Shown piece by piece: positions 28,116 to 64,000 of a DNA stretch of 64,000 nt; position 1 is the stretch's first letter, and the number at the start of each line of letters is the position of its first letter. Position numbers and translations under genes: made by a program. The DNA comes from Paramacrobiotus metropolitanus (lineage: Eukaryota > Tardigrada > Eutardigrada > Parachela > Macrobiotidae). The stretch is from the NCBI RefSeq assembly GCF_019649055.1, contig NW_026570291.1, positions 496,001-560,000 of the forward strand, written 5' to 3'. Below the pieces are notes generated by a model that was not told where the DNA came from, ran no database searches, and saw nothing but the letters and a program-made list of their open reading frames with translations.

Positions 28116-29287
28116 ATGAATAGTACCAACACTACATTCTCAAAGTTACCGTTCGCAACCAAAGGACTACTTCTTACATGGACATCAATTTTGCTGTCGG
28201 TTAGCTATGCCGGTGGATTAAGCAGCATCGTGACGGTGTGCATGATCTTCTCCAAGAGAAACCTACGGACACCTTGTGGATACTTAATTGCACATGGCCT
28301 TATCGCCTGCACCATTCCTTGCTTAATAGGATTTCCGTTGGCTGGGGTTTTCGTGTACTTGAAATATATTCATGGTATAACGGTTTCCCGTCAGTATTGC
28401 GTGTTCATTCTCTGGACACAGCAGACCAGCCGGTTTGCGGCTCAGTGGTTTGAAGTGTGCGTGGTGATTAATCGTTTTGTTGCCATCGGAAAGCCGCATC
28501 TATACCAGAGTATTTCGTCGCGGTTTGTCGTCAACGGTATGATCGTGTTTGTATGGGTTTATTGCGCTGCACTGGTCACTCCGGGATGTTTTGGTTATAC
28601 ATCTCAGTACACAGTCAGTGCTGTTGGGAATTGTGCAGCAGTACCAGCGTTTGGAGTTGTTGGAGCGTTAATAACAACCCTATCGATATACCTCCCCGTT
28701 GGTATTTGTGCCATTCTGTACTTTTTGATTTATTCGCGGATGTTACGAGGGAGACGGGCAGCCGTAGCCAGCAGTGAAACTGGCCCAAATACACCGGCAC
28801 CCAATGTTGCACGCCGGTTAGTGGTGGCCAATATGATGTTTGCGGCGTTTGTCTGGAATGCGGTGTGTATATTGTTCATCCCACTGGCTAGTGTCATCGT
28901 GCCGAATATTTATTCGGTGTATCCCACGCTGATATTATGGTTTGCTGTCGTTTACACTATGGCTCATGGTCTTAACCCGGTAAGCTACGCCCGTCACCAA
29001 GAGCATGAACCATACGAGTATTTTCATATGGTCGCGGTGTACCACGTCATTTCGTGGGCGGAAACTGCGGTAGTTTTAGGCTAAGCGCGTTGTCTTTAAT
29101 TTAGACCATTTTCGCTACCATGAATCGAGAGTACCGGCATGGATATTTGGATATGTGTAAAAGGCTTTGCGGAATCAAGAAGCCGACTAAAGAGATATCA
29201 ACGTTTTCGGGAAGAGTTTTCAGACCAAAGCGAGACCGAGTGACTAGTGGCCACGCCATGCATAGCTTAGCGATGCGTTCACGGTGA
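28116..29287 (+). CDS. Class A (rhodopsin-type) GPCR 1, two exons
   Basis: Exon 1 28116-28979 and exon 2 29105-29287, phase 0, 348 residues. Exon 1 holds an N-glycosylated N-terminus (NSTNTT) and seven hydrophobic segments; the intracellular loop 3 is short and basic (LRGRRAAV). The end of TM3 reads INRFVAIGKP in place of the canonical DRY. Exon 1 ends at LNP followed by a gtaagc donor. Exon 2 supplies the conserved end of TM7 and helix 8: TIFATMNREYRHGYL, giving NPTIF in place of NPxxY and the common MNREYR helix-8 pattern. The 126-base intron (28980-29104) has no early stop, so unspliced reading gives a false 322-residue protein with an odd tail. Ligand unknown; a peptide or orphan chemoreceptor-like receptor is plausible. 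The second GPCR at 54631 is not a close paralogue. Confidence 0.85.
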
Positions 29288-31033: not shown

Positions 31034-32884
31034 ATGGATTTAAATGCAAGACTTCATGTGCGATGCAAAGCGCTATCCTTGCTTGTTTGCACGAATATGT
31101 CGCATCCTGGCAACAACAGCAGCACTAATTGGTCAACTGATGCCCAGTGGAATGGCTTCATTACTGCCAGTGTTTCCTATAATCCGCCATGGAACTTTGA
31201 AAGTCCTCCTGGATCTGGATGCTTTTGTGGACTATCCGTTGCCTTACTGGCTGTGGTCGGTCACAAGCTTGGAATTAGGTAATAACATGATGGTACAGTA
31301 TAATATCGTTTCTAACAATAAAATTCTAGATTTGCCTTATTTCCACTAACGCCTCCCTTGACAAAATTTACGACACAAGACAATATCTCATACGATGGCG
31401 CGCCAGCTGAGCTGCTGGCTGGAAAGGTCAACATGAGCATTTGCCCTTTAGCAATCACATGGGCACGAGCTCGGGATTTCCAGCTAATTACGGGATTTCT
31501 GACAAGGGATTACAATATCGCTGTCCATGAGAGATGGCTCCTCGATTCTGCAGTTACCGACAGATCGCTTATCACAACGCTATTCCGCACTGCTTTGATC
31601 GATACTTGGCCGGGGCTAATTTTGTCCGCTACGGGAGTTTTTGTTGCATTTTTCTCCTTGCGTATGTCAAGAGAAGTGGGCAATAGCGATGCCACAAGAA
31701 GCCGATTCATGGGTTTAAGGAAGTTGGTTGCTCACCTCAAGACAGCGAACGCGATCACGAGTATTTTGTCCATTACGGAAATTTTGACCTTTACTTTTTT
31801 CAGTCAAGGTATGCATTCAATTCACCTTGAAGTTCAAACTTTTCAACCTACAGTAGAGCCGTTTAATTTCAGTCGATGTTAAGCGCCCGCGATTTGCCGG
31901 GGCGCAGTTGGCAGTCCTGCAGTGGTTCCTCTATTCCTACTTTGTGATTTGCTTGATGAATGCCCATGTTAGTTCGAGTTTGATGGGCTTGACATTAACT
32001 CCACCGTTTCATACGCTTAATGGGTTTGCAAAGTCTGATTTTGATCCGCTTGTGATGGGCACCACAGCTTCTGTGGATTTCATGGTATGGTTCATGCTAA
32101 TTCATATCCGTTCCGTTCCAAATGGAATTAGGTAATTTAACATCAAGTTAGGTAAGGCGTTAACAACAGCCGCAGAAGCCAGAAAGACAGAAACCGAATC
32201 AGAGAAATTATGTACAGTATATGTGCACTCTGCTAGCAAGATTCTCTTTTTAGAATACCAGCACTTTGAGACCGCTAATTCCACGAACACGCCAGTACGA
32301 TGCAAAAACTTCTCAAGACGTTTTTATTGCGTACGCTGCAAACTTGTCAGCGCATGAGCGAATTGCAATAATCAGCAACAGTGTTCTGGAAACACCGCAG
32401 TTTCAAAAAGCAGGATTCGTTTCAGCAGTGGAATCTTTTTCTCGTAGTTTTGTGGCCCTTTATCAGTTTCCGCGTGGCGCGGAGGTTGGTGTCAAGGTCA
32501 CCAGTGTGTAAGTTCCCAAAGACAAATACGGTAGCCGCATACTGAATAAAATTAAGTAAGAACTTTTTAACGGTTTGTAATAGGCTTTACATTAATTTTA
32601 TTATCTGCAGAGTGACACACATGGCAGAAAACGGTAATCTTCATCACATTGTTAATACGCATTTGAGACTGCTATATTCTGCGCACGGAATGTCGTTCCT
32701 AACAAAATCCCAACCCAGTCGGAAAGGGAACGCTTCAATACGGATGGAAGCGCTATTATCGACCGTGTATACGGTCGGAGTTTTGCTCTTTATCGCAGCA
32801 TTGCTGTTGATAATTGAGATAAAGCTGTCGAAAAGATTGCTTAGGTGTAATGCAGTCAGTTGTCTTATGGTACCTCCTGCGTGA
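31034..32884 (+). CDS. Ionotropic-receptor-like ligand-gated channel, copy A
   Basis: Five exons, phases closing: 31034-31278, 31330-31808, 31873-32084, 32254-32507, 32611-32884; 487 residues. The layout is that of ionotropic glutamate receptor relatives that lack the large amino-terminal domain. There is a short N-terminus with PPWNFESPPGSGCFCG; an S1 lobe with YDGAPAELLAGKVNM and CPLAITWAR (the Arg near residue 128 aligns with the ligand-binding Arg of iGluRs); TM1 at ~173-192 (TWPGLILSATGVFVAFF); a pore-loop region; an M3-like segment (LQWFLYSYFVICLMNAHVSS), then PPFHTLNGF, matching the post-M3 'PF..L' of insect IRs; an S2 lobe; and TM4 (VGVLLFIAALLLIIEI). The SYTANLA motif of true iGluRs is not kept. 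No signal peptide is obvious. Copies B and C share all intron positions and phases. A chemosensory role is inferred from family only. Confidence 0.8.
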
Positions 32885-33990: not shown

Positions 33991-35802
33991 ATGGATTTTA
34001 ACGAAAGACTGTACGCGCAATGCAAATCACTATCGTTACTCGTCTGCACAATTCTGCCGCAGCAATTTGATTTCGCTGACAGCAACAGCACTCGGTCAAC
34101 CGACGTACGTAAGGATAATGTCATCGATGTGAGCGTCGCCGATAGCCCGCCATGGAACTTTGAAAGTCCACCTGGTTCAGGATGCTTCTGTGGAATATCA
34201 GTGACTCTGTTGACCTTAGTTGGAAAAACGCTTGGATGTAAGTAAAGCCGTTATTATGAAGTTAATCTTATAACGGCGAATGTGAATTATCGGTTTTTCT
34301 TGCAGATTTCGATTGCTGCCAACGTCTTCTTTAATTACTGTTACAACATCACGTAATACGACGTATGATGGAGCTCCGGCTGATCTGCTTATGGGAAAGG
34401 TCAACATGAGTTTGTGTCCGTTAGCAATTACACTATCACGCGCAAAGGATTTTTATCTTGTCAATGGATACCTAACGAGGGATTACAATATAGCCGTTCA
34501 CGAAAGATGGCTCGTGGACTCCGCGTTTGCCGACAAGTCTCTGATCGCAGCGCTCTTTCGGATGGCATTGACCGATACATGGCCGGGATTGCTGGTCTCC
34601 GCAATAAGTGTAATCTTTGCATATTTTGTCGTATGCTTGTCCAGGAAAAAGCATGTTTATAGCGTAAAACCGACAAATCAAAGCTTACGGCTAGTTGAAC
34701 TTGTGCAGTCGATATTGTTTGCCACGGAAGCTTTGGTCTCTAGCTTTTTCAGCCAAGGTGAGCACAGGCTAGAAAATTGCACGACACAAGTTTTCTAGAC
34801 TGCAAGTTTACCTACAAGAAATCTTTTTGTAGTGGATATCAAGCGCCCACGGTTTGCTGGTGCTCAATTGGCGGTTCTGCAGTGGGTTGCTTACTCTTAC
34901 TTTGTAATATGCCTAATGAATGCCTACGTCAGTTCCAGTTTGCTTGGGTCAACACTGACGCTGCCATTTGATACTCTTGTTGGGTTCGCACGATCCGGCT
35001 TCGATCTACTTGTCGTAGACACAACGGCAGTTGTTGGTTTAATGGTAGGGATTAATTGGTGTATCGCGTCGACTGTACTTTTAACTTTTAATTACTGCCA
35101 CTGGCTGAGTATGTTAAAAAATCGCCTTTTCCACAGTTGAGCAGATAAAAAGTAAATTGACAACGTAGTGTAACGTTTCCATGTTTTACATTCATTTAAC
35201 AACTTGTTTGAATCACCAGTTTTTTAGCACATTTCCACTCTGGAGCCGCTGATCCCAAGAACGCACCACTACAATGCAAAAACTTCTTACGATGTGTTTC
35301 TTTCCTATGCCGCAAATGTATCGAAAAGCGAGCGCATCGCAATATTTAGTAACGATGTTCGAGAGGAGTCACCACGATTTCAGAAAGACAGATTTGTTAC
35401 GGCAGTGAACTCTGTCTCTCGCTCTTTTATAGCTATTTATCAACTTCCACATGGAACCGATCTTGCAAGGAAAATTGATCGTGTGTAAGTTTAAGAACTC
35501 TACACCAGAGCTGTAGATAAAACGCATACGTTGTGTACTGTAGTCTGTTCGAGTCTGCAATTTTTTAATTCAGAGTTAAACAACTGGCAGAAAAGGGCAA
35601 CCTTCGGCACATTACTGACATGTATTTTGGCTTGCTGCATTTGGCCCATGGAATGCCTTTCGTTACAAGCCCCGATTCAAACCGGAAAGGTACCACCTCC
35701 ATACGAATGGAAGTGCTACTGTCAAGCGTGTATGTATCTGTGTGTCTGTTCTTGACAGCGGCATTGCTTTTGCTAGTTGAGGTGAAGTGGCGTAAAAACT
35801 GA
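33991..35802 (+). CDS. Ionotropic-receptor-like ligand-gated channel, copy B
   Basis: Five exons: 33991-34241, 34306-34757, 34833-35044, 35228-35484, 35574-35802; 466 residues, all phases closing. It is closest to copy A: same MDFNERL start, WNFESPPGSGCFCG, YDGAPADLLMGKVNM, CPLAITLSR (conserved Arg), TWPGLLVSAISVIFAY (TM1), LQWVAYSYFVICLMNAYVSS (M3), LPFDTLVGFA, S2 lobe and TM4 (LFLTAALLLLVEVKW), with a shorter cytosolic tail than A. For exon 1 the donor must be the second of two overlapping candidates (gtaaag at 34242, not gtaagt at 34238), because only that one keeps the frame. The ATG at 33991 aligns with the start of copy A. A and B form a recent tandem pair. The LRR and eight-TM genes follow downstream. 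Confidence 0.8.
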
Positions 35803-38882: not shown

Positions 38883-40255
38883 ATGTTTTCATTCCGCTTC
38901 ACAAACCAGCTACTGGCAGGCTGCTTTGGCATTCAGTCGATTATCGGTTTGAATTTACTAATTTTGACAATAACAGGTATTAAGCCACCGTAATGCACAA
39001 CGCCATACGCGTGTCCCAGCAATCCAGTACAGTACTTATCGGAATTATCGTTTGTTTTTCTAGCTTTATACGATTACTCCCTACTGCATTACGCAATCTT
39101 CCGATACACTTTTCCAATGGATTTCGCCGTTATTTCATTGGCCTTTCTTACTGCCGCCAAAGGATTTTATGTGCTGCGTTCAAAATCGGGAAATGAATGC
39201 CTTTTGGAAGCACTGTCTTTGTCTAATACTATTCTGGCGAGTATACTTGCCCTACTCCTCGAAAACAAACTGATGGAACTAATATCCCATGTCCGGCATG
39301 TGGACGCTTTCGGCCCTGACCATACATGGAAGTTCTGGGCATGGTGGTGCTTCATCCTGGGATCCGTGGTGATCCTGCAAGCAGCCACGGTTATAGCGAT
39401 TAGTGGGATAAAATTTTACAGGGAACAACAGGAGCTGGTACGGAAAAGCAATATAATCGTTGCGTTTGGCGTAGAATAAATCGCTGCTGCAGTTCGATTA
39501 AAACGCTATATTAAAACGCTATAAGAAAGTATATATCATCTTGATAGCGTTTATCGCTTTGGTTTAATATCGAATAACAAACTTAATTAATTCAGTTTTG
39601 GTGGTCAGGTGATCGACAGGTGGAATACTGAAAAAACCTCTGCCAAAGAACTGACGTTATTGGAATTGTATGCCGCAATACAAATCGCCCTTGGAATCGT
39701 TATGATACTGGTTGATGTTACCGGTAGGTTGACAATAATTCTCAATGCCTCGTGTTCTTGTGTGTCGAACACTTAAGCTTTGAATACATAAGCGCATTAT
39801 GCGATTTATTAGGCGCTGCTTTGGGTCCTGCTGGTGGAACCCTGAAAACGAACCAGATTTACTGGTATGCTTCCATTACCGTGTTTATCATCGGCGGACT
39901 GGTTATGGCTTCTGGGGTACTGGGTGTGGTTGTATCGCGTCAAAGTGTTGCCGTGAAGCGTCAATTTGATGCAATAACTACCATCAACTACGCGGTGATC
40001 GCTTTGAGCAGCTTGGTCTTTGCTCTTTTCGTCATTACCACGGCCATTCTGGTTATGTTCTTTCTCAAGGAAATATACAATAAAGAGTTGTGGCATTTCC
40101 TTACCGAAGTTGGAAGCGCAAAACTGGTGACCCTTTTCGCCATCTTTATACTATCCATTAAAACCAGCCGGTTAACTTCGATGCGTGTGCAGCTATTTAT
40201 TACCTCACTGGATGACATTGAACAAGGAATGCAGAAGCAAAATAATATAATATGA
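38883..40255 (+). CDS. Eight-TM protein of unknown family, copy 1
   Basis: Four exons with closing phases: 38883-38976, 39064-39437, 39609-39723, 39813-40255; about 341 residues. I count eight hydrophobic segments: one in exon 1 (LLAGCFGIQSIIGLNLLIL), three in exon 2, one in exon 3 (AAIQIALGIVMILVDVT) and three in exon 4 (IYWYASITVFIIGGLVM; INYAVIALSSLVFALFVITTAILV; LVTLFAIFILSI). The two halves each look like a four-TM unit, resembling tandem tetraspan folds, but no tetraspanin CCG motif is present. A conserved DAFGPDHTWKFWAWW stretch sits before one TM segment in both copies. Function unknown; localisation in a membrane is clear. Exon 2 can be read past its donor (gtacgg) to a nearby stop, which gives a truncated four-TM alternative. 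Copy 2 at 41958 shares every intron. Confidence 0.75.
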
Positions 40256-41957: not shown

Positions 41958-43359
41958 ATGCTTGCGCGGCCGTCCCTTTCTTACAGCCAGCTGCTGGCGT
42001 GTTGTTTCGGCATTCAGCTGTTTGTTGGATTGGATTTATCAACCTTGATCAGTATAGGTAGCTGACTTGGTTTGGGGTTGAAATAACAACTTGAAGTCAT
42101 CGAGTGTTTTTATCTTTCCAGCTTTGCACGATTATTCCCTGCTGCATTACACAATTTTCCCGTACAGCATTCCAATGGATCTCGCTGTTATTTTATTGGC
42201 TTTTGCAACGGCCACACTAGGATTTTACACACTCCGCTCAAAATCGCGGCACGAAATCATACTGGAATCCCTGTCGTTGTGTAATGCCGTCCTGGCAAGC
42301 ATAGTAGTCCTGCTCCTCGTCCATAAGCTGGTTGAAATGATATCTTACTCCCTGAACATGGATGCTTTTGGCCCTGACCATTCATGGAAGTTTTGGGCCT
42401 GGTGGACGTTTATCCTGTTGTCTGTACTGGTGCTACAAGCCGCCACCGTTGCTGGTATCCGTGGGATAAGGTCATATAGAGAAGAGCACGAACTGGTACG
42501 GAAAAGCTTTGCAATCAGTACTTGGTTCACCGTACTTCTATAGGCAGTTATTACGAGTGATATTCTAACGCAATTTTGTGCAACAAAAGAAAGCGAATGC
42601 TGGATAGTCCTGGTTAATTTTGATTATGATACTACGAGTATAATACTGTACCTTAGAATTCACAAAGAATATTGCTCACAAATGCGGTTTTGATGTCAAG
42701 GTCAGCAGCTGGAATACTGGAGAAACGTTTGCCAGAGAAATGACAGTGCTGAAGCTTTATTCCGCAATAGAAATCATTCTTGGAATAGTTCTTCTTTTGG
42801 TTGATTTTGCAGGTAAATTAACATTTTGTTAATTTTAAACTCATGACAGAAGTCATGGGAAATTTTACCGGGTGACGGCGGGTGTATTATTCTATTTCGG
42901 TTGTTAGGCGGTGTTATGGGCCCCATCGGCGGTGCTCAAATTTACTGGTATGCTTCAATTATTGTGTTTGTTATCGGTGGACTTGTTACATTCTCCGGTG
43001 TCTGGGGTGTGGTTTTATCGCGTCGAAGCGTTGTTGTGAAGCGTCAATTTGACGCAATAACTACCATCAGCTACGCAGTGATTGCATTGACTACCCTGGT
43101 CTTTGCTCTTTTCGCTATTACCACGGCCGTTCTGACTGCGTTATTTGCCAATCAAGTACACTTCAAAGAATTTTGGCATTTCTTTACCGTAACGGGATGC
43201 GCAAAACTACTCACCCTGGTTGTTATCTTTGTAATGTCCATCCGAACCAGCCAGCTGACTTCCGAGCGTGCGCAGTCTTTCTTGGCGGAACTGGATTATA
43301 CCCTAGCGGACACCGTTAACACCACGTCGGAGAAGCAAAGAAATATTATGTGGGCATAA
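41958..43359 (+). CDS. Eight-TM protein of unknown family, copy 2
   Basis: Four exons in phase: 41958-42057, 42122-42495, 42701-42812, 42908-43359; about 345 residues. It has the same architecture and intron phases as copy 1. Exon 2 has exactly the same length (374 nt), and DAFGPDHSWKFWAWW, VKRQFDAITTI and the IYWYAS segment are conserved. TM segments are more conserved than loops and termini. The reading frame is intact throughout, so this copy appears functional even though its LRR neighbour has decayed. Compared with copy 1 it lacks a short TLKTN insertion at the start of exon 4. The intron donor after exon 2 (gtacgg) is identical in both. Role unknown; possible membrane partner or transporter-like protein, no evidence for either. 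Confidence 0.75.
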
Positions 43360-44514
43360 ATACTACACGGGCATCGTTCTGTGCTTAATTATAACTATTT
43401 TTGAAGTCCATACGTATACTTATTCACTCGAAACCTCTTCTCTCTTTTTTTATTGATAGCGGTTCACTATGCGTATGGGCAAATAACGTGTGAAGAAAAG
43501 CCTTGACTACACCAACTCTTAATTCAAATTTCAAGGCATCTATGGCTTCCTTTAAAGATTTCATAATAACACAAATAAAGATATCGAATAGCATTCTTGC
43601 ATTTATGTTCATCACAGCATATAAGTAAACCAGTTCCAAGATGCCGGTCGACTATGAGCGTTATCATTCTACTCATGAGGAATCGCGGATTCTTGCACAT
43701 CTCCAACTCCTACTCCAGGAATGCATATCTCCAACTTTTGTGCTATCCTTGATTTTCTCCGGTTGTGTGAAAAGGGCGGAGTTTTAAAAAACGCACTTTA
43801 ATGAAAGCGTCATGTCACGTATTGAAGCACCGGTTTTATTGGGCTTCTGTGTACTGGCCGAATAGATACTAAATATAATAATCAAGAACACTACAGAATA
43901 TTCCATCCAGTACAGGTCACAAATATGTAAATGTTGCTACGCGCAAGGGCGCGTAGCCACTGCACTACATTACACGTCACTTGCTGTTGCGCCATCGGTC
44001 AGGCAAACACAAACGCACAGAGCGCGAGCGCTGTCCAGCATAAAAGAATAAAATTGTGACCTTTTCCATGGAAAATTACATAAATAACGAACTGGCTTAT
44101 AAGTAACAGCGGTGGGTTTTCTTGGCTGCTTATAGTCGTTTAAATCAGAAATGGTTTGCCTAATTAGGATAACAAAGTGAGCACGCGGTACATTCCATCT
44201 ACACGAGAGGAATTTTTTGAGAATGGAATGGCGATCCATCGTTACTCTGGTGGCGGTGTATCCAGGTAGCCTGATACAGAATTGCAGCTGCTGATCGAAC
44301 ATGTGACACCATCCAAACCGAATGTGCAATCAGCTGTCGAAATGCTGTGAACGGTATACAAACCAGCTGGATTGGACATTTTAGGGTTGGCTCAAAGACC
44401 TGCAGTTATACGAGTAGTAAGGAAACCTAATCGCTTTTGATAGCTTTTTGTCCATATTGAGTTGTGTCGAAGATAAAACGCGACATCAACTCGGAAGTTC
44501 CGCAGGGCAAAACC
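43360..44514. other. Intergenic
   Basis: No supported gene. A small inverted repeat (gctacgcgcaagggcgcgtagc) lies at about 43936-43957. Confidence 0.4.
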
Positions 44515-46548
44515 ATGTCCTTAGAATTCTCCTATCGAGCGTGCGCTTTGTTAAACTTACGAATTTGTAGCGGTTATCCATTGCCCAGCGATAACGCTAC
44601 CAGTAACTTTACTGGTAGTTTTAAAGGTAATTTTACTAGTAACCAGTCAGTTCTGACAGCGAGCGTGTCGGAAAATACCCCCTACACTTTTGAGAGTCCA
44701 CCTGGTTCTGGATGCTTCTGTGGTATATCTATTACGCTTTTGTCCATCCTTGCTCAAAACTATCATTTTCGGTAAGGATATTGGAATTACCTCTTCTGTT
44801 TTTAACTAGTTCAATTAAAATTTGTGATTTTCAGTCTGAAGCTTGTTCCGGATTCTGTAAATGTGGTTTTCGAAACGCAGGACAGATACAAATACTACGG
44901 TGCTCTTGCCGACGTTTTACTGGGAGGAGTGAATATCAGCACCGTACCGCTCTCGATTAACGCACCCCGGAGCCATCATTTTGGTTTAGTACGAAGCTTT
45001 ATCGTGCGCGATTACCAGATTGCCATTCACCAAAGATGGCTAGTGGAATCCGGGATGATTGGAGGTTCCGTGATGCGAGCGCTTTTTCAACAGTCTGCCC
45101 GCGAAGCGTGGCTGGGGTTATTAGTTGCGGGCATCTGCTTATTGGTCGCTTTTCTTGTCACCCATGCAGCCCAAAGAGATAACGCGATGCGCCGTTCCAC
45201 AGCGCCAAAACCGCTTATGCATCATCATGGGATCTGGGCGGTCAAAGCGTTTTTCCGTGCAGTGTTGAATATTACTGGAATTTTCCTCAATCAGCGTATG
45301 TTTACAGTTTACTTTTGAATCAGACTATTCTAGTAAGCACAATGTATTTCTCGCTGATCTCGCTTCACATTTGGAACCTTTAGACCGCTCCTGAAAACTA
45401 AGAAGGCGTTTTACATTTGGCTAACCGATTACCTCTAGTTTTGTACAGTCTGCAGTCTGCACTACATACTCTGTGTAATGTGTTCGATGTTTTACAGAGG
45501 ACTTTAATCATCCGAAAATGTTTATCGGGAGCTACGTAGCTATATTGCTATGGTTGTTTTATTGTTTCTTCGCAAACGAGGCGATGAAGGCTGGTCTGAG
45601 TTCGGGATTGGCCGGTTCCTTGCTAAAGCCGCCTTTTGATACAGTATCTGGTTGTAAGGAAAATGGTTTCCAAATACTGATCCAAGAAGGGACTACACAA
45701 CTTGGCTTGATGGTTAGCACGCTTGACATGCATATAAAGTTTAAATAGCATGCAGTGGTTCAGTTTTTTGTCGCTTTTCATTGGTGGAAAAATATTCCAT
45801 TCTTGTAGAATACAATCATACAGACGTACAAAATGCATACGTACCTACATAGGTACATTCATTCTTGCACCCCAACTTATTGTTAGCATGCACTTGCACG
45901 CCTTGAAATTTCAGCAGGAATTTGTTCTAGAATCGAAGCGAACTGATAGACCTGATGCCGACAGTCCTAAAGTACAATGCCAGTCCGTCCCACGATGTCT
46001 TCCTGGAATATGCAGCTAATGTTTCACAGATTAAGCGAATTGGCATCCTATGCAGTATGAAAGAAATGCCCAACTGCCAAAAAGCCGGTTTTGTTGCGGC
46101 ATTACAACTGGGACTGTTCAACTTTGTTGGTTTGTTTCAAATGCATCCTCAGTCACATCTGGTTTCGAAGTTTTCGGATATGTATGACTCATGCGCAACA
46201 GAAATCAAGAATTCCACTACTCTAGACAACATTACTTGCATACAGTATTTTTTGCTGGTTAGGCTGGAACGGATGGATAAAACAGGAGCACTGAAACGCA
46301 TTATCAATATTCACACCGGTATTGATTTTATGGCTAACAACGTCCCAAGGACCCCGCAAAAGACCCCATCAAGAAAGGACAGAAACAAGCGCGGTCTGCC
46401 GTTGTCAGCATACCGTATCAGCGTACATTACCATCTTGGAATTTGCGGAGCGGCTGCAATTATATTTTTTGTTGAAATAGTTTTTGACAGACTGAAACTT
46501 TTCGCTTCCAGATTAAGTGGTTTTTCGTTTTCGCCGATGCCCTGCTAG
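44515..46548 (+). CDS. Ionotropic-receptor-like ligand-gated channel, copy C
   Basis: Five exons in the same phases as copies A and B: 44515-44771, 44835-45295, 45498-45712, 45931-46181, 46263-46548; 489 residues. It keeps the hallmark FESPPGSGCFCGISIT, an S1 lobe with GALADVLLGGVNI and PLSINAPR (conserved Arg position), TM1 (WLGLLVAGICLLVAFLV), an M3-like segment (VAILLWLFYCFFANEAM), KPPFDTVSG, an S2 lobe with YNASPSHDVFLEYAANV, and TM4 near the C-terminus. It is clearly more diverged than A is from B, with a longer basic cytosolic tail. The fourth intron (46182-46262, 81 bases) is a multiple of three and has no in-frame stop, so retention would add 27 residues containing NST and NIT sequons. 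Confidence 0.8.
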
Positions 46549-46699
46549 TAACCCAGCGCGAAAAACCTGTTTTTTTAAAACTTTTTCCTAAGTCAACTAT
46601 TTTTTATTTTGAAAGTTAGAGTAGATTTGGTGCTAGTTACAACTGAAATCCACTGGTTAAAAAGTAATCTGCAAAAAAAGGAAAGAAAGTACTTCGCTG
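46549..46699. other. Short spacer
   Basis: Downstream of receptor copy C; no feature assigned. Confidence 0.3.
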
Positions 46700-46896
46700 T
46701 TTCTCAACCTGACTTAAATTTTGGTACGTATTTTCTACGTACAAGATTTCTGATAATTACGCCTGTGATTGGCCGGGGATTGGCAGTGATCTGGTGTTTT
46801 TCGCTTCTGATAATCGTAATCCTAGTTGATTTTGTGACCGTGCATCCTTATCCAGCCTATACTGTCGGTAGCTCCCTCGAAGCGGTGAATCGGTAA
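46700..46896 (+). pseudogene. Possible glutamate-receptor M3 fragment
   Basis: The frame around 46770-46895 reads GRGLAVIWCFSLLIIVILVD and then FVTVHPYPAY and SLEAVN. That resembles the M3 segment plus following 'SLE' linker of canonical iGluR/IR proteins, more than it resembles copies A-C. No matching S1, TM1 or S2 exons were found around it, so it is either a relic of another receptor gene or one exon of a gene I could not assemble. The reading frame ends at a stop at 46894-46896. Confidence 0.4.
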
Positions 46897-47631
46897 TTCG
46901 AGTTGAGATGCTTTAATACCGTCAGGAACAGAACAGATAGTAACTAAAAATTTCCCTGAAAATTTAAGTTTTACGAACTGTGCCATATTAAAGTGAACGG
47001 CTGACTTGCGAGTTAAAATTACTAACCTATCTCGTGCACCAAGATGTCAGTACAACTCTGTATAAGTGCACAGTGCGCATTCCGAATGACCTTGCAGCAA
47101 GTATTGTAACCACTAAGTACAAAAAATATTGTTTTTGCAAGTGCGCGTTTGAGGATATTGTAAGTATACCCGACGGATATGTCAATAAGTGCAATAGTAA
47201 GTTCAGAAGGTCAGACATATATTATATTTGTGCTTAATTAACATACGTAGCAAACCGAGCAACAGTACACGTACGATAACTTGAAAGGGGTCAAACGGGT
47301 GAGGTAATGGCAGTTTTGTTGCAGTGTGCAAAATGCTGTTGTTTCACAAGAAAATTACTTATAACGCGGTAGCCAATTGGCGGTCTAGCAAATATTCGAT
47401 TAGTCAATAATTTTCTGATTATCGTAAACGGTAATTGAACTGGTTTTACTTCAAGTCCATATTAGATCCTTTCCAGTTTGCTACCAGTTACCAACATAAA
47501 ATATTTTGTAACCCATTGTGCTGTTTATCAAAAGTGTTAACTGGACCTCTTCCGATGGCTTGTTTGGTCTTTTTATTTCTGTACATCTCACGACCAAAGA
47601 GATAAGATTGCTTCTAGTAATACACACTTCA
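46897..47631. other. Intergenic
   Basis: Convergent 3' region between the receptor array and the minus-strand annexin gene. Nothing else seen. Confidence 0.35.
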
Positions 47632-50600
47632 TCATTTATCCAAAACGATTCCTGACATGAGTCGGAACGGTTTATTATCCAGCAGGGGACGGAGATCGTC
47701 GAGTAAGGTGATGTTATAAAATCCTTGATAGGCCGCTTTTATTTCAACTAAATCAATCTGCGAAAGCGAAGTTGACAAAATTATTATCTTGGATACTGCT
47801 TTGTACTGTATATTAGACCTAGGTGCAAAGCTGAATTAAAGCTTACCTCAGATCGAGATACGATCAAGCGTATTAAATTCCGCACATCATTATTCTGTAT
47901 GTATTCATTGAGGCAGTATGCAAAGAAGCTGACTCGATCCTCCACGCACAATACTAATAAACATAAAATAGACATAAGAGTATACAGTTGGCTTAATTTT
48001 ATATACGCTTCCACTGTTGTGTTTTTAAATTCCAACCTAACAAACGCAAGGCTTCGGCAAATTCTGTGGAAAAGAGTGGTTCTAGCGCGGTAAGAACATC
48101 AATTCCGGCGAACTGTATAAAGAAAAAATCCTTGATAAAAACTTAAATTGGAGAAAAAACTAATGTTCAAAAAGTCTGATTTACTAACCTTGCGAAATGT
48201 TCGAAACGTCTCTCTTAGCTGTTCTCGGCTGCGTGCCGTTAATGTTTGTACAAAGTAGTCAATATCCGGCGAATCGCGGTAAAACTGCTGGTACATTTCC
48301 CGGGCATCGGTTTCCGCTGCCATTCGATCCACATTCCATCCGACCACACGTTTGGCCTACAATACGGCTTTTATCAAACAGTGGAACTCAATAGGCCCCG
48401 TGTTTGGCCGACGCTGGTTGCAATTTCCTTTACCTCTGCCAATTCACACAGTAAGAGCACAACATCGATGTTTCTCGTCAGCTGTTTGGCCAGATCAGCC
48501 GACAGGCGGACTCCATATTCTGTAAAGCGCATAAATCAAGGAACCGCTCTTGAAAAAGCAAAGCGATCTAAAAGCACTAACTTTTTTTATATTGCTGATC
48601 AATAGCTTTGAGCTCCTGTAAGCATAACATCAAAGATTATAAGCGTTATGTAAGGTGCGGTTATGCAACATATCCATCTACCGTAGATATTTTACCTACC
48701 TTGACGGTCTTACTGCAGAGGATCTCCAGTAAGGCAAAGCTGGTCTCGTTTCCGGTTTCGATTAGCTCGTGCAGAAAGGTGGCATCGAATTCATCCGGCC
48801 GCAGAAGGAGAGCGGCCATGAAGTAATCCAGTTCATCCCCGACCGTCTCCATTACATCATCGATCAGGACCTAACCGTTGTGTAAATAGAGCGTGTACGT
48901 GACCTTAACGAGGAGGGCTGATTTGAGGAAGTAAGTGGTACTTACCGCATCAAAGACTTCGGTATACACCGATTTCAGTACTTGACGCTGATGATTGGTC
49001 TTGGAAGAAATTAGATAAATTAATGGAAGATCATTGGTAGCTACGAAAATATTGAACATAAACAGTACGACAATCAGGTTGCTGGCAATGCTGAATCTGG
49101 ATATTTGAAGCATGCTAAAACCATCATTACAAAATACAGACGAACTCAAAATTGTCACGTTCAGTTCAGCTATTTAGGCCTTAGCGAACACAGTTACGTG
49201 ACGGTCAAGCTCTATAATTTTAGCGCTGTCAAGCTGAACTGCCTTATATGTATAATCTTTGCCTGTTTTCTGTTTAGCTTGATTACGATTTTAATAAAAC
49301 TCAACCATTCAGAATGTTTACGAGGGCATAATTTTCAACAGTCTGTCGCTAGCAGGAATATTTGTGCAGGAAATAAATAAAGCAAACTCCAAAAAGCATT
49401 TAGATGTGAAAACACATTTACGTACCGTAATGCTGCATTGCAATCCGAAAATCATGGATATCCCGGTACGGGTCAAAGGTTTTTAAAGGAGAAACGGTGC
49501 CGTGTGTCTGCAAATGATGGCTATATATATATTAATATTGGGCTCTTAGCATACTCGAATAAATTTTGTAAAACCAAGTTATTTCTACAAGGTCATGCGT
49601 TTGAAGATTTCGAATTAATTTGTTTGGCCTTGTTTAGCCAAATGATCACTTACAAAAAATTTGTATTTATTAGGATGGCCAGAACCCTCTCGATCGGATC
49701 CATGGTCGTTGCCGTTACTGCTGTTCTGCGAAGAGGAGCCGCTGGGTCGTGAAAACGGTGCAGTTAAGGTGCCGTTCTGTGTGAGTTTTCCTGGCTTGAG
49801 CGTGGCACCGTTCTCCGTCGGCGTCTTCTTCGGGACATCCTTCTGACGGCCCGCTACCACCCGCTTCATAACGTCAAACAGCGGTAATTCCACTACGGAT
49901 CCAAGGTCATCAAAAAAGTCCCGCTCATATTTGTCGTTATAATACGAAACAATTTCGGCAACATTGGCTTGCTATAAAATATTCGAAATTAAATAGTTTA
50001 TCTTACAGTAAACGTTTGCTGAAACGCAAATCCACTTGCTTCGATCACATTGACGAAAATCCTAACCAACTCTTCCACATTGCCATCGAGAAAGCATTGC
50101 ATCAACTTTTTCGCGAAGACATGTTGCGTGCTACTGATCACGAAGTCTGTAAAAGTTGGAAATATTGCATCTGAGGCTCTGAGCATACATCCATTTTCCC
50201 GACGCGATTCAATAACCATCCATTCTTACCGAACGTTTCCATACAGCCGAGAAAGGCGTGGCTGCACTCCGCTTCAATGGCATCGAGAAAGTTCTCCCCG
50301 GTCACCTGCATCATATAGGTGTATACAGAGTACATGCATGCAAATTCCGTCAATTATATTGTATTATGGCTATTATGCGATTGTTATTTGTTGCTCGGCG
50401 TAAGCGAGGCAGGTTGTCAATGCAGATTTGCTACTCGTACTGCTGCCACCAAGGGGCAGGCTGGCCCTAGCAAAAACGCATCGAGGATTTATTGGTACAG
50501 CAGCTGTATTGATTTGAGCGTCCATATCCAGTGCACTCAGCCGCCGGAAACGTTCAAGTAAAAATGCGTATTAGGCGGATAATTTCCTGTTTGCGTAGGA

Positions 50601-52672
50601 GGCATTCTCATGTCGTCTAACAAGAACTGATTACGAATTCCGCTAGCTATCGTGCCGTCTGCGGACTGTTGACTGGCTAAGATTGTCACAAAGTGGATGG
50701 AAATTGCTTAAGTAAACTGCATTTTCTCGAAAACGATTTCAGAGCTTTTAAGGAAACTTTTGAAAAGATATCATTGGTTTCCGCTATTATACAACGAGTC
50801 ATGCTTAGTCTGCACCAGTACAGAACGGCTCTGCTTTATGACTTATACACAGCCAATTAACGTTGTCCTTCAAAAGAGTTTTTCGGAGTTCAACTGGGGA
50901 AGGTTTTTTCAACCAGAAAGATAATAAAATTCATATTATCTTTCCGGTACATTGTGAATTCTACATTGCAGAATTCATAATTCAAAAATCAATAAACTTT
51001 ATAATGTTGGATTAAACAATAGTATCACTGAAAAATAATCCAGCATTTTTCACATTTCAGGCAGAAAACATTCAACATTTTCTTCGTGTGCTGTAAGTAT
51101 TATTCATTATTGTTTACTTGACCATAGCCTAATTACCGCCTGCAGACCGAATCCGAAAGGGATTTTCGAACCACGATATAAAACGGGCCAACTTCCTACC
51201 GGCTTTTGGAAGCGTTCAAAAGTAAGTCAATTAATCAAGATCCTTACCTCTTCAAAATCATAAATGACATCGCGAATATATGCATGAGAACGTGACTGCA
51301 GTAATTGATGCAGCTTTCCATCACGTGACGTCCAGCGTGTTGTCTTGGGGGCCTGTATATGCGTGAGCTCATTACTAGAGGGATGCATCTGCCTGCCCGC
51401 AGCGATTATCATTCATCTGCTAATTTACGTACTTTGGCTAACAGCAAAGCGTCTTTCCTAATGTTGGTCTCATTGGGGGCGTATCCGTTTTCATTAAATT
51501 CGCCCTAAAAATGTGGGATTCTTCCATAACGATCGTTTTACATGACTTCCAGTCACAACAAACCCACTTTGCATATTCCCAAGAGAAGCGTCTTGACTGC
51601 TTCGTCATCAACTTCTCCTAGCTCTTCCGCAATGGAAATATCTTGACCTTGTGGAAAAAACCAAAATAACCAGTGAAATTACCGGTTTTTTGTGCATATT
51701 ATCGATGAGCTTACTTTTGTTGTATTCAGTGGAAACGATCGCCAATGCCTGATATGAAAAAAATTCCAGTGGATAATTGTTTTGATAATTTATATTGTGT
51801 ATGCAACAGTCTAAGTAGCGCACAGCACTTACGATGTTTGTTCGCAGGCAGAAAAACTCCACTAACTCTCGGTAGTAAGAATTCACATTCTATCGGCAAA
51901 AGATATAAATCAAAAATCAATACGTCGCTGGGCTTTCGTTTGAAAACCGTAAGTTAAATTTTCTCACCTGAAAATACAAGCTTAACTCTTGCACATCGGC
52001 GAGAATTCTGTCCGTTAATAATTCCTTAATGAACACATGGAGCGACGGTTCTGATGAAGCTTGTAATTCTTGCAAAAGATCTCTCCCTGCCAATTCCCGA
52101 TATTCCCGGCAGGTTTCCAACCGTTGTGGCCATTTCATATTGCTCAGCCTTTCCAGTACACCTTCCATTGTCTCTTCTGCAAAATGAAAGATTCGTCGCA
52201 AGAAGGCATGGATATATAATATTCCACATACTGTCAGCATAATTCTGAATATTTTCTCGGATTTGTGCTGCTTCCTGCTTCGCGACGAACGGTTCCAGTT
52301 TTCGCTTAGATTTGGACATTTCAAAGTTTTGGCATGCGTTATATTCCGCAGTAAAAAAATGGTCGGTCGGAAAATGGTCAGAATGAACGTTACTCAAGAG
52401 GATTATGATTGTAAAGCAATAGATTTTTTCGATCGGCCCAAAGAATAATTGGGGAAAAGACTGTTCGTTCACCTACAACTACAAGAACAGATATCGAAGA
52501 TTGAACTATTAGAATTAGGTATGGATGTACTACGTGCTACAACGCTCGATCTCACCTGGCTGCTGGCTCCGTGGTGTGCATGTTGATGTTGATTATCGAT
52601 TGGAATAGGCTGCACGCGCCTAATTCCACCTGTGCATGCACCATCGTTTTGTGCTGCAGCGGAAGGTTGCAT
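47632..52672 (-). CDS. Eight-repeat annexin (annexin A6-like layout) with degenerate calcium loops
   Basis: Nineteen core exons close in phase: 52319(or further)-52232, 52176-51968, 51889-51833, 51748-51715, 51647-51568, 51504-51433, 51388-51248, 50305-50230, 50146-50007, 49971-49654, 49507-49426, 49040-48946, 48870-48700, 48615-48582, 48519-48434, 48356-48189, 48112-48037, 47953-47847, 47757-47632. The core is about 719 residues. An upstream exon at 52672-52556 (MQPSAAAQ.., His-rich) may be the true start. Annexin repeats bind membranes, usually through calcium. Repeats are plain: ELAGRDLLQEL, ELVEFFCLRTN, LHQLLQSRSHAYIRDVI, then a 60-residue Ser/Pro/Gly linker, then THGTVSPLKTFDPYRD (restart of an annexin core), ALLLRPDEFDA with LLEILCSKT, YFVQTLTARSREQLRETF and LIRLIVSRSE. 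Two four-repeat cores give the octad form known from annexin A6. No repeat has the GxGT calcium-loop motif, so calcium binding is doubtful. Confidence 0.88.
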
Positions 52673-54630
52673 TAGGGAAAAATCAATAGATTGTCGTGTT
52701 TACGACTCCGTTTGGCCACCGTAGACAGAAGAGCGCACTGGATCTAAAGGTTTTTTTAGTGCCGGCGACGCCCCGAGCTGGCTCATTTATTACGCAACTT
52801 TCACATAACATACTTTCAGAATCTGAGCTACACAAGACTATACACAAGACTAAGTCCACATCTGTTTACTCATCATTTTGGAATCGGCTGTTTTATTCAC
52901 AGAAAACGCAGCTGTGCATCAAAATGGGACTATGTCTACTCTAAGCCTTTATATTCTGTAGACCAGTGCTCATACCTCTGACATGTTGCACGTTGACTGC
53001 AAAGAACAATAATTTTACTTTTTATTATACGAGTACTGGTTTGCAATCTTGTTTCACTATACTGTACTATACATTTGCGACAGCATTAATACGCTGTCGC
53101 AGATGTATAGTCGCTGTCGCATTTGTTTAGTACATTACATAGTACATTATAAACGTATGGTACATTTTAGAGTACATTATAAGCAATTTTTTTCGTGGGT
53201 TAATACCAAAGTCTTGATTTATGGAAGCTAGATAGTTAAATACTGAAGAATCCGCTGAAATCTAACTTCGATAGTCTGCGCCCTTGTAGGTTCGACAAGT
53301 AAAACTTTCATGCTTCCGACTGCGCGGCGCTACCCTGATCATCAGAGCACGACAGCTTTTCTAAAATTTGAGCAACAAATTCATAAAGCCTTTGTAAACT
53401 AATGTACTGTAGGTGCTAGCGCACGCATTTACTCTTTATTCACCTGTGGTACAAAGTATTATACAATAACTGTAAACCTCACAATTTTTGCAAAATCAAA
53501 ATTTCTTTAAACTTTTCTGCTCCTTCCCTCGTTCCCAAAACTGTACTAAACAGTATGTACGCATTTAAAAACGTAGTAGTTTAAAAAAAAACATGTGTTT
53601 CAGATAAACCATTAATGATTTTATCAAACTTCAGCACTGTGATAGTGTGACATACCGTCACATACGTACAAGTTGACGGTCAACCAGATTTCTAAATCTG
53701 TTACAGTTACAATAAAGATAAAAGGTGGTGCACTAGCTGCAAATTAATTTGTTGTCTGCATTCATGTTGCTTTTCCGCAAGAGCAGCAGTTAGATAAATA
53801 CTGGTATGTAAATAAACAGCCATCAAGTCACGAAATTTTGCTAGTGCAGTGTCATTTTTATCGATTTGCCACGTATAATACCAAGTTGCCCCACAATTCT
53901 AAGCGAAAGTGACCTTGCAAATGTATTTATTAAGTCCCGCAAGCACCTTTCAATGGAATATTTAAGCACGACTAGCGCGCCCGCGCACTCCAGTTTCGCA
54001 CTTTTACCTGCGTGTTTACTGTAGTCACATTTCTCAAAGACCAGATACCCGAGTACGTACAACCATTCAGACCAGATTGTAATCTGTTGACGTTTTGCAA
54101 TTGTCCTGTATGTATGTATGCATTATGAAACCGTTTAAAATTGCATGCATTCGGCCCATATTCTGCAACGCGACAGGTATTATTTCATTAAAAGAATTAC
54201 AAATACGGGTATCGCGGTGTAAGAAGATACGCTTTTCTGGATTTATAAGAAATCCGAATTTGTTCTTTAAGAAGTTTTGCGGACGTTTGGTCATTGTTGG
54301 CTTCATGCTAATTTTACATCGGTTCGAATTCGAAAAGCGATACAACCGCCTCATATTTGCACGTAATATTATCTGAACGCTACTCAGCCGAATGGCTGAC
54401 GACGTAATAACTGAGCAGAATTTTTAGTGCATCAAAAATCCGGTCTTTTGAAATTCGAAAATTGTCCAAGTGGATTGTGGATTCTGCTGTGCTACTGCTG
54501 TCTACAGTAGCGCCTGGACAAGTAGATACCGTGTAGAAGAGAGTGCAGTCGTCGTGGTTTTGTTTGCGGTGATCTTTATTTTTGCCGGTTTTACGGGATA
54601 AAAGCAAAGAGAATAAACAATTCTATCCCG
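52673..54630. other. Intergenic, with hairpin and short repeats
   Basis: No gene. A perfect 9-bp stem hairpin (tgcgacagc / gctgtcgca) lies at about 53077-53102, followed by repeated 'tagtacatta' units to about 53182. A tRNA-like relic on the minus strand is at about 53276-53350. Confidence 0.5.
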
Positions 54631-55641
54631 ATGCCTTGCAACTCTACAAACGTCTCTAGCGACCAGAGTGGATCCTCACCAGATGGTCCACAATGGAACG
54701 GGTCGACTATATTTGAAACCATCGTTGTCGTACTGGCGTTTATTCTAAACACTGCGGTTTTCATGGTCTTTGTGCGATACAGTCATCTGCGGACTTCATT
54801 CACCCTGAACATCATGGCTCTACTGGCATCCAACGTTATTCTCGCTGTCTTCATGTATCCACTGGACATTATCGGAAGCATTTACAGTAGCTGGCCGCTG
54901 AGTGTTACAGCATGCACTTTTTACCTGTACGGAGACTGGGTAGTGTCCGGCGGGATGATGCATATGCATGTCCTGATCACAGTTAATCGGATTTGGGCGA
55001 TGAGGTTTCCTGTATCGTACAAGAATCATCACGGCACCAAACGCGTCAGTTGCCTACTTTTGATGATCACCTGGATTTACGTGCACGCCGTCTGTATGCC
55101 GGGTGTCATGCTGGACGCTTTATATTTCCGCAAGCCGTTTTCCACCGGCTGCAATTTGAATAGCGACGCTCTGGTTGCTTGGATTAACACCGTCCAGATT
55201 CTAATTTATGATTTGCCGGAATTATTCGTTGTTGGCGCGTATCCTTTCCTGCTTCATCAGCAGCTACAACGGCTGCGCAGATCATTAGCACGAAAAAGCA
55301 TAAGGTTGTCCCACGTGTCGCCACAGCCGACAGCCAATTCGCTACCCGTACCAGCCTCACCGACTCATGGCAAAAAGCTGTTACGATCCAAAGAAGTTTC
55401 GAGAGGATTTATGGTTTTGACCGTAATGACAGCCGGTGTGTTTGTTTGTTGGACGCCGTCGCAGATCTATTGGACCATCCATCTAGCTAATCCGAACATT
55501 GCCATGCCAGATTTGTTTTACACTATTGAGTCGGCACTTTTTCTACTGCAGGCGGTCTTGGATCCTGTTATTTTTGTGCTGACCTTTAAAGACTTAAGAG
55601 ATACTGTGCTAAGATTGACCTCGATACTCGCTAACAAGTGA
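54631..55641 (+). CDS. Class A GPCR 2, intronless
   Basis: Single uninterrupted frame of 336 residues beginning MPCNSTNVSS (N-glycosylation sites). Seven TM segments: FETIVVVLAFILNTAVFMVF (TM1), LNIMALLASNVILAVFMYPL (TM2, with an Asn in place of the usual sodium-site Asp), TM3 ending VNRIWAMRFP (DRY replaced by NRI), TM4 with W, a longer basic and Ser/Pro-rich loop 3 (RRSLARKSIRLSH to KKLLRSKEVSRG), TM6 with the FVCWTPSQIYW version of CWxP, and TM7 LDPVIFVLTFKDLRDTV (DPVIF for NPxxY). The Cys of extracellular loops 1 and 2 (TACTF, STGCN) can form the usual disulfide. It ends soon after helix 8 without a long tail. Ligand unknown; insect/tardigrade-type peptide or orphan receptor is a guess. 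Lack of introns suggests a retrocopy origin or simple intron loss. Confidence 0.88.
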   Translation: MPCNSTNVSSDQSGSSPDGPQWNGSTIFETIVVVLAFILNTAVFMVFVRYSHLRTSFTLNIMALLASNVILAVFMYPLDIIGSIYSSWPLSVTACTFYLYGDWVVSGGMMHMHVLITVNRIWAMRFPVSYKNHHGTKRVSCLLLMITWIYVHAVCMPGVMLDALYFRKPFSTGCNLNSDALVAWINTVQILIYDLPELFVVGAYPFLLHQQLQRLRRSLARKSIRLSHVSPQPTANSLPVPASPTHGKKLLRSKEVSRGFMVLTVMTAGVFVCWTPSQIYWTIHLANPNIAMPDLFYTIESALFLLQAVLDPVIFVLTFKDLRDTVLRLTSILANK

Positions 55642-56427
55642 GCCTACCAGCATGGCTTCACGAGGCTGCTTGTAAACTTGCGCATCAGCTCCGAAAGCTC
55701 GAAAGGCGGTAACAATTGAAAAATTCTTTGGAACAAGCCGTTTTGAAACGCGTGCGAAACACAAACTTATACGGCACCTATAACTGTATGAACCTAACGT
55801 GTATACAATACGGAACCAAATGTTTTGTCGCAGCTTACCCCACGTTTTATTTTGGAATGATGCCACCGGCCAAGCAGGATACGAATTTCCACTGTATGTT
55901 CGCTTTCCCATTATTTAGCAGTGCGTGTCTGCATAACTTATTAGTAGCTTATGGCATCGGTAGGACAGCCTTCAGATTTTTAATGATTTTAATGACCTTT
56001 GTTACAAGTCAAGCAAAATTTACTGTTGTGTAAGAAATGTATGGAAACCGGGGTTACTGTACAGACCAATATACCCAGAGCAATAAGGCACTGCGGCAGG
56101 AAACGGGTATGACGAAACTTTTACTTTATAACAGCGTACGGTTCTGGTTGGTTGGACAGTCCGTAGTACAACAGCGCTTGAAGTTGTCACCTCCCGTTTC
56201 AGCTTTGTAATAACTTACAGTTTATACTCCAACACCGCTCGCAGAAAGCTAACGGAGGCCAGTGCTCTGCGAACCGTAATTCGAAATGCCACTGTTGAAA
56301 CTGTCACTGGCAGCAGTTTTGTTATTTTTTTGTTAGCAGCTACTGGAGGCAAGAGGATGACCAGAAAGGAATAATATCAAAACCATAACTTCATTCTGCA
56401 GGTCACTGCCATTATTCGAGCTTATTC
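55642..56427. other. Intergenic
   Basis: No supported gene; the open frame at 55716-56033 has no family features. Confidence 0.35.
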
Positions 56428-62238: not shown

Positions 62239-63946
62239 TCATTTTACTTGACCTATATCTAGTAAAGAAAATAGCTGCTCGTCCTCTGTAGCGTCGTAAT
62301 CAGGAAGCACTCCACTGAACTCATCACTGCTTATTAACCAGTAAGTCAGCATGGCGCCCTTTCCCTGTAAAACCAATGGCAAATGGCGATATTATTGTTA
62401 ATTATTTAGATACCTGCGAGCACGCGCAGTACGCGGCGTTATCTGTTTTCAGTGCTATGTATACCTTGACGTCACGTAATCCTCGTTCAACTACCCGATA
62501 AATATTGAATTCTTCTAGTAAAACTTTCGTGGCTTCGGATAACTGAATTCGTAAAGGTAAAGATGAACTTTCCATCCTGGAAGCGGTATTGACTGCAAAT
62601 CAATAAACAAACGATGTTAACAATAACACAAATGATCTGGACTGAATTTCTAACCACATACCAGTATCACCAAAAAGGCAGTAGCGAGGCATTTTCAGAC
62701 CCACTATGCCCGCTATCACAGGTCCGCTGTTGATTCCAATCCGAACTTTGAGCGGCTCCGAAAGTACATCGGAAATCTTGACAGTTACCACTGTGCTAAG
62801 AATGCTTAATGCCAGATTGGCAATTTCCGCTGAATGTTTATTCCCGTTACGGTTTGGAATTCCGGAGACGCACATATAAGCGTCGCCAATTGTTTCCACT
62901 TTGTACACGTCGGAACTTTGTATTATGACGGCATCGAAAGCTGCAAAACACTATTATAGTATTATACGGAGTAAATTTTTATTGACGTTAAATACTCTTA
63001 CCGGAGTAAAGGTCATTCAAAAGTTTGACAACTTCAAAAGGTGTGTGAGCAGAGGCAAAGGTTGTAAAGCCAACAATATCTGAGAAGAAAACCGTGGCAC
63101 TCTCGAAGTATTCAGGCTCCACTAATTCGCCACTGGCTAGCTTCGCAGCCAAAGCAGCCGGAAGCATATTGTTCAGCAATGATTCTAGACTCTTGGTCGT
63201 CTTCTCCAGATCTCGGGTTCGCTCCATGACTTTTTCCTCTAAATTAAATGCATACCGTTCTACCGCCACCATCATCGTGTCCAAGATGCTTTTCTGCTTC
63301 GGATTGGCCATTTTCAGCTGCTTTAAAATCTCGGAAAACGTCGGTCGATTGTGGGGAGTGGTATCCCACGTGGACCAAATCAGCGCTCCGATTTCATCGA
63401 ACTTCATGGCCAGTTCGTTATAGTACGCCGGGCGCAGTTGCTCCGATTTGATTTGCTTCAGTAGCATTTGCGGGGATTTGTAGAGATCCTCACTGAGCGC
63501 TTTCAGTACGGATTCATACGGTTCACAACCGGCGAACGTCTCATACACGACGACACCGTAGCTGTAGACATCGGCGGATTTCTGCATGCCACCGGCGGCG
63601 TAAACTCCGGCAATCCACACCAGGGCTTCCGGAGCGGTCCAGAAGAGCAGTTTGTAGTAGTCATACTGGCTGATCTCTTGATTCTGCTCGTCTTGAAGCG
63701 CGCTGTGCACCCGCTCAAATGCGTAGAATTCAATTTTTTGGGCTTTATGCAGAGATAGTTGTTCCCAGTCGCCAATGACGACGTTCCACCGGGCATCAAT
63801 ATAGCAGCAGCTTGTTGTTAGCTGACCGTGGATAATGTTTTTCTGATGCAGGTGAGCCATGCCTTTCGCGATGTCGTTAATGATCGAGTTGCGAAAGATG
63901 TTGTCCAGGTTGAACTTTGTTGTGCGCAGAATGTCGGTGAGTCTAC
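62239..63946 (-). CDS. Receptor-type guanylate cyclase, C-terminal part (gene continues beyond window end)
   Basis: Four exons on the minus strand, phases closing: 63946-63002, 62940-62662, 62592-62465, 62364-62239 (stop). A further exon ends at 63997, where its last four bases and a gtaagt donor are visible. Order: C-lobe of a kinase-homology domain ([19 protein letters not shown] where active kinases have [19 protein letters not shown]), a coiled-coil signalling helix ([20 protein letters not shown]), and a class III cyclase domain. Catalytic residues are complete: both metal Asp ([16 protein letters not shown]), guanine-selecting Glu (KVETIGD) and Cys (RYCLFGDT), plus Asn/Arg (NTASRME). 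[10 protein letters not shown] precedes a 31-residue tail. It makes cGMP at the membrane in response to an extracellular ligand. Ligand-binding and TM exons lie outside the window. A broken copy of two exons is at 60501-60740. Confidence 0.93.
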
Positions 63947-64000
63947 CTGTAAAGAATCCAACATTTGCTAGTATTTTACAATTGCAGTTTACTTACGTAT

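Follow-up and report, generated by a model that had tools for sequence, protein, structure and literature searches.

The stretch of DNA analysed here, called the window, comprises 64,000 nucleotides (nt) of contig NW_026570291.1 of the tardigrade Paramacrobiotus metropolitanus (assembly GCF_019649055.1, positions 496,001 to 560,000) and is eukaryotic in appearance, with multi-exon genes, and animal-like in its compactness. On its minus strand, between an ATG at 52319 and a TGA at 47634-47632, lies a gene of 19 exons, all of which stay in frame when joined, that is predicted to encode a protein of 696 residues and 79.8 kDa. The protein is laid out as two annexin tetrads of four repeats each (core 1 and core 2), joined by a basic linker of 65 residues that is rich in serine, asparagine and glycine and has an isoelectric point (pI) of 10.0. 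Eight annexin repeats in two cores had been proposed in an earlier note made from the letters of this DNA, and the 19-exon model at 47632-52319 bears the proposal out; the linker described in the note is also present, with a length of 65 residues by the boundaries drawn here and not 60. The probability that the gene encodes an octad annexin that has also become independent of calcium is put at about 0.55, judging from the sequence.

Gene structure and support for the spliced model

Splice sites were first chosen by eye and then tested by a scripted spliced alignment of the raw DNA to a profile of six annexin cores (the N-terminal and C-terminal cores of A6, and those of A1, A4, A7 and Hydra B12), from which both cores of the tardigrade protein were excluded. 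The alignment, run on two hand-cut halves (49600-53000 for core 1 and 47400-49660 for core 2), recovered introns 1-8 and 11-18 exactly, which amounts to 32 of the 36 splice sites. It missed introns 9 and 10, since in the first half it stopped within exon 9, just beyond the GC donor, and intron 10 spans between the halves, so that these two introns rest on manual reading and on the alignment of core 1 to annexin VI, which extends into exon 10. Core 1 scored 106.1 and core 2 scored 241.9, compared to means of 27.2 and 26.4 and maxima of 39.1 and 39.4, respectively, for 100 dinucleotide shuffles of each, and to 34.3 and 26.3 for the opposite strand. When both strands of the window were aligned as 64 overlapping pieces, none longer than 4 kb, only five pieces scored above 39.4, and all five were on the minus strand within 44001-56000; thus, no second annexin locus was seen in the window. 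A raw three-frame scan of the minus strand with Pfam, with X at stops, gave at most 11.9 bits, under the cut-off, which we attribute to the shortness of the exons. ARAGORN (bacterial code) found no transfer RNA, and Rfam gave no match at its gathering score.

Exon 1 (52232-52319; all coordinates of the gene are on the minus strand) supplies the ATG start (MSKSKRKL...) and helix A of repeat 1, its 3' boundary being recovered by the spliced alignment, as were the boundaries of exons 2-8 and 12-18. Exon 2 (51968-52176) contains the remainder of repeat 1 and the beginning of repeat 2, which continues through exon 3 (51833-51889, 57 nt) and exon 4 (51715-51748, 34 nt) to its end in exon 5 (51568-51647); repeat 3 starts in exon 6 (51433-51504), continues in exon 7 (51248-51352) and ends in exon 8 (50230-50305). 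Exon 9 (50040-50146), with its 5' boundary from the spliced alignment and GCAAGT as its donor, belongs to repeat 4, and exon 10 (49654-49971), which was read manually, carries the end of core 1 and the entire linker (49654-49848). Core 2 starts with repeat 5 in exon 11 (49426-49507, 3' boundary by spliced alignment) and exon 12 (48946-49040, 95 nt); exon 13 (48700-48870) spans repeats 5 and 6, exon 14 (48582-48615, 34 nt) lies in repeat 6, and exon 15 (48434-48519) ends it. Repeat 7 occupies exon 16 (48189-48356) and ends in exon 17 (48037-48112), and repeat 8 is divided between exon 18 (47847-47953) and exon 19 (47632-47757, 5' boundary by spliced alignment), which closes with the TGA. Several exons of 34 nt and 57 nt are described in the earlier note; two are 34 nt long (exons 4 and 14) and only one is 57 nt long (exon 3).

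The introns measure 55 to 942 nt, and the guanine plus cytosine content is 0.46 in the coding sequence versus 0.37 in the introns. All 18 acceptors are AG and 17 of the 18 donors are GT, the weakest donor being that of exon 17 (GTTGGA). The remaining donor, GC after exon 9, defines a GC-AG intron of 68 nt; an alternative GT donor at 50006 would add 11 in-frame residues, but the GC-AG reading is preferred because the alternative intron would be just 35 nt long. A polyadenylation-type AATAAA (47572-47577, minus strand), separated from the stop by 54 nt, fits the end of the gene. At the other end, a candidate upstream exon of 39 codons (52556-52672, minus strand) could connect in frame with the gene across an intron at 52555-52473; it has no counterpart in Pfam at E 1 or in the prokaryotic library NCBIfam, and the stretch 52319-52672 is dispensable for both annexin cores.

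Annexin repeats and calcium-binding loops

Core 2 matches the Pfam Annexin family (PF00191, cut-off 25 bits) with 82.8 bits in four stretches and is unmistakably an annexin by sequence. Core 1 matches with 33.4 bits in one stretch (residues 184-230, covering exons 7-8); its other three repeats fall under Pfam detection and were assigned by alignment to annexins. Both cores align in the fixed order of repeats I to IV with the six reference cores, two of which are incomplete in repeat IV, and 22 columns show no variation among the two cores and four of the references. Core 1 is clearly an annexin, although a very divergent one. Its identity to the references is 17.2-21.9% (21.0% to the A6 N-core, 21.9% to A4), and that of core 2 is 22.3-30.1% (30.1% to A1, 27.4% to the A6 C-core). 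In the PDB, annexin VI is the best match of the whole protein (E 5.3e-47) and of core 1 alone (whole-chain E 1e-23); the best single stretch in the whole-protein search aligns core 2 to annexin A1 with 122.5 bits, and the single stretches for the A6 C-core and A6 N-core score 88.9 and 75.1 bits. Core 2 has no match in NCBIfam. A search of IMG/VR, which is not a eukaryotic collection, with the six-core alignment gave 41 pattern matches of which none was confirmed, and a search of a genome-contig collection without eukaryotes with core 2 as the query gave 20, none confirmed.

The signature of the type II calcium site of annexins is G-x-G-T. The pattern G-x-G-T/S occurs in none of the eight repeats and nowhere in core 1 or core 2, in agreement with the earlier note; in the references it occurs three times each in the A6 N-core, the A6 C-core, A4, A7 and B12 and twice in A1, bearing in mind that the repeat-III loop of normal annexins (x-x-G-T) escapes the pattern. 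The aligned AB loops are QNYADKE, NVNSYYR, TTRWTSR and LDGNVEE in repeats 1-4 of core 1 and QHYATND, ETGNETS, YRDSPDID and QNNDVRN in repeats 1-4 of core 2; the fourth loop is two residues short in both cores. Tyrosine is present in the loops of repeats 1, 2 and 5 and tryptophan in that of repeat 3. The type II site, as given in the available part of PMC3588008, combines AB-loop carbonyls with an acid that lies some 40 residues further along. In the column of this distal acid, only repeat 3 of core 1 has an acid (glutamate); the other repeats have serine, valine and valine in core 1 and threonine, glutamine, leucine and leucine in core 2, and among the references with letters at the column the acid is absent only from repeat I of A1. 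The aligned sequences support the absence of a type II loop from every one of the eight repeats. The same part of that source reports that the site is missing from about one third of annexin domains and from all repeats of A9, so such a loss does not by itself exclude membership of the family.

Some observations weigh against calcium independence. In at least repeats 1, 2 and 4 of core 1 and repeats 1 and 4 of core 2, acids are placed no more than two columns from the lost one, and a pattern search of both cores found no K/H/RGD motif, which is said to replace the lost sites of A9. The former, together with the glutamate kept in repeat 3 of core 1, would suit an annexin that still depends on calcium through type III or other non-canonical sites, and type III sites do occur in annexins according to the part of PMC3588008 available. 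Such a calcium-dependent annexin is nevertheless unlikely, given the statement in the same part of that source that AB sites are required for membrane attachment and that B or DE sites do not suffice.

Continuity and origin of the octad

The two halves of the gene are split by one intron of merely 146 nt (intron 10), which has a GTAAGT donor and an AG acceptor. Read back in frame from exon 11, the sequence reaches a stop eight codons upstream with no ATG between, and the first methionine is inside repeat 5; hence a complete core 2 could be translated separately only with an additional exon, and one gene that encodes a single-chain octad annexin is the simplest reading. The alternative is that two separate four-repeat genes, or a gene expressed mainly as an isoform with core 1 only, have been read as one. 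An AATAAA inside the linker exon 10 (49666-49671, minus strand) and the stop that read-through of the exon 10 donor meets after 12 codons do make a shorter, core-1-only isoform possible, as a speculative matter, and introns 9 and 10, which were modelled by hand and missed by the script, also count in favour of this alternative; the short intron 10 with its regular splice sites, the upstream stop and the missing start codon for core 2 make it improbable.

Evidence for how a single-chain octad came about comes from the introns, from residues common to the two cores and from a tree. Intron pairs 3/13, 4/14, 5/15, 7/16 and 8/17 are at identical alignment columns with equal phase, pair 9/18 is at adjacent columns with equal phase, and pair 1/11 is three alignment columns apart with equal phase, both members being 17 residues from an invariant Gln-Arg; introns 2 and 6 of core 1 and intron 12 of core 2 are unpaired. 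At the 114 columns where both cores differ from all six references, 16 residues are identical between the cores compared to 7.0 expected (P=0.0015 by shuffling, which ignores the tolerance of each site), among them Q-x-Y-A of the first AB loop and D-D-L towards the end of repeat 4. Together, the seven common intron positions and the 16 novel residues favour duplication of one tetrad that had already diverged. As sole proof of duplication the seven introns were rejected: exons of vertebrate annexin genes measure 95, 114, 91 and 80 nt, and the sums 209 = 95 + 114 (exon 2) and 57 + 34 = 91 (exons 3 and 4) suggest that some of the common introns are probably ancestral.

Besides the possibility that the common introns are ancestral to annexins and the limit of the shuffling, the divergence of the cores and the tree speak against duplication. 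The cores are only 20.4% identical to each other. In a tree of the two cores and the six references, all five inner branches are open, both tardigrade branches are very long, and holding the cores as sisters costs 2.2 log-likelihood units (p 0.37 in the approximately unbiased (AU) test, not rejected). When core 1 is held with the A6 N-core, the tree gains 1.8 log-likelihood units over the free one (AU p 0.69), and neither core 2 with the A6 C-core (AU p 0.13) nor all four together (p 0.075) is rejected. These results could be accommodated by a true annexin A6 orthologue, or an heir of a common octad ancestor, that evolved fast and lost its calcium loops, the more so since the order of core, linker and core is identical and annexin VI is the best match in the PDB. 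The whole-chain ranking, however, sums two stretches for annexin VI, core 2 is closer to A1 than to the A6 C-core both in identity and in the score of the single stretch, and the cores have novel residues in common with one another, so descent from an A6-type octad appears rather unlikely. The description "annexin A6-like" in the earlier note is therefore supported only as regards the octad architecture; on descent, the tree neither proves nor rejects the pairing with A6. An origin of the octad by duplication of a tetrad that was already losing its loops is proposed tentatively, with odds somewhat below even, and the duplication would most likely have been independent of annexin A6.

Decay of the gene into a pseudogene, its loops lost by relaxed selection, would explain the strong divergence, chiefly of core 1 (with an end branch of 7.7 changes per column), and the loss of every GxGT loop, but is quite improbable in view of 696 stop-free codons (5e-18 by base composition, a figure overstated by the choice of exons as open), no frameshift, splice sites that are all GT/GC-AG, and the invariant columns retained in both cores.

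Several other coding regions are found in the window. On the plus strand, neighbouring frames at 2131-2550 and 5349-5879 match PAP2, of the lipid phosphate phosphatase type (Pfam 30.9 and 37.2 bits), and are perhaps a tandem pair. Long frames at 28098-29081 and 54526-55638 (plus strand) are of the rhodopsin type of G protein-coupled receptors (7tm_1, 43.8 and 61.3 bits) and have the chemoreceptor families Srsx and Srx as their secondary matches. Three frames at 31322-31879, 34286-34795 and 44806-45315 (plus strand), alike by eye with a stretch DYNIAVHERWL or DYQIAIHQRWL, have the look of receptor paralogues; Pfam gave nothing for them at E 0.01. At 38994-40252 and 42082-43356 (plus strand) lie two hydrophobic multi-span gene regions that are also alike by eye, and none of the four frames tested from them exceeded a Pfam cut-off. 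On the minus strand, kinase-like and guanylate cyclase domains in adjoining frames at 62603-63992 are probably a receptor guanylate cyclase that continues past the end of the window.

Predicted function and comparison with known annexins

The function suggested by an octad annexin without type II loops is that of a constitutive two-headed scaffold or tether, as opposed to a membrane binder triggered by calcium, a proposal that falls a little short of an even chance. The helical discs would still fold, with calcium no longer triggering their docking to membranes. With less weight, partner proteins might attach to the faces of the scaffold, as periplakin is said to do with annexin A9, and the aromatic residues of the AB loops might help by touching the membrane without calcium. 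The net charge is negative in both cores (-18 in core 1 and -12 in core 2, with pI 4.8 and 5.0, respectively), which speaks against plain binding to anionic lipid in the absence of calcium. The most complete version of this scenario, in which intragenic duplication of a loop-degenerating tetrad, independent of vertebrate A6, led to what is now a calcium-independent tether of membrane or cytoskeleton acting through aromatic AB loops and partners, is doubtful as a whole. If true, the annexin double disc would have been invented a second time, and the trigger that defines the family removed from it. An independent octad without calcium loops would also allow the effects of octad shape to be separated from those of calcium, as a natural loss-of-trigger experiment.

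Annexins are described as calcium-regulated membrane-binding modules in the available part of one review (PMC10882027), which also states that, of the annexins it covers, AnxA6 alone has eight repeats. The part of PMC12249911 available gives a range of four to ten repeats, and octads outside vertebrates may thus be commoner than the earlier note supposed. Octad annexins are known, and so are annexins that lack type II sites; an octad annexin without the type II site in all eight repeats was not found described in the literature searched. In the part of PMC9145152 available, the one annexin mentioned is annexin V, used as a stain. Annexin A6, the vertebrate octad (PDB 1m9i, 1avc), resembles the tardigrade protein, as predicted from the gene model, in having two tetrads and a linker in one chain, but has three G-x-G-T/S loops per core where the tardigrade protein has none, and identity is 19.8-27.4%. 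Annexin A1 is the nearest of the six reference cores to core 2, but is a single tetrad that keeps two G-x-G-T loops. Annexin A9 and the plant annexins AnxD24 and AnxD1 have four repeats each, in contrast to the eight of the tardigrade protein. A9, compared here by its description in the available part of PMC3588008, is similar in that the type II sequence is gone from all of its repeats, but differs in that it is said to carry K/H/RGD motifs. AnxD24 and AnxD1 bind liposomes without calcium through three residues of the convex face, according to the available part of PMC12249911, and the tardigrade protein may be likened to them, by that description, in having aromatic residues in some of its AB loops.

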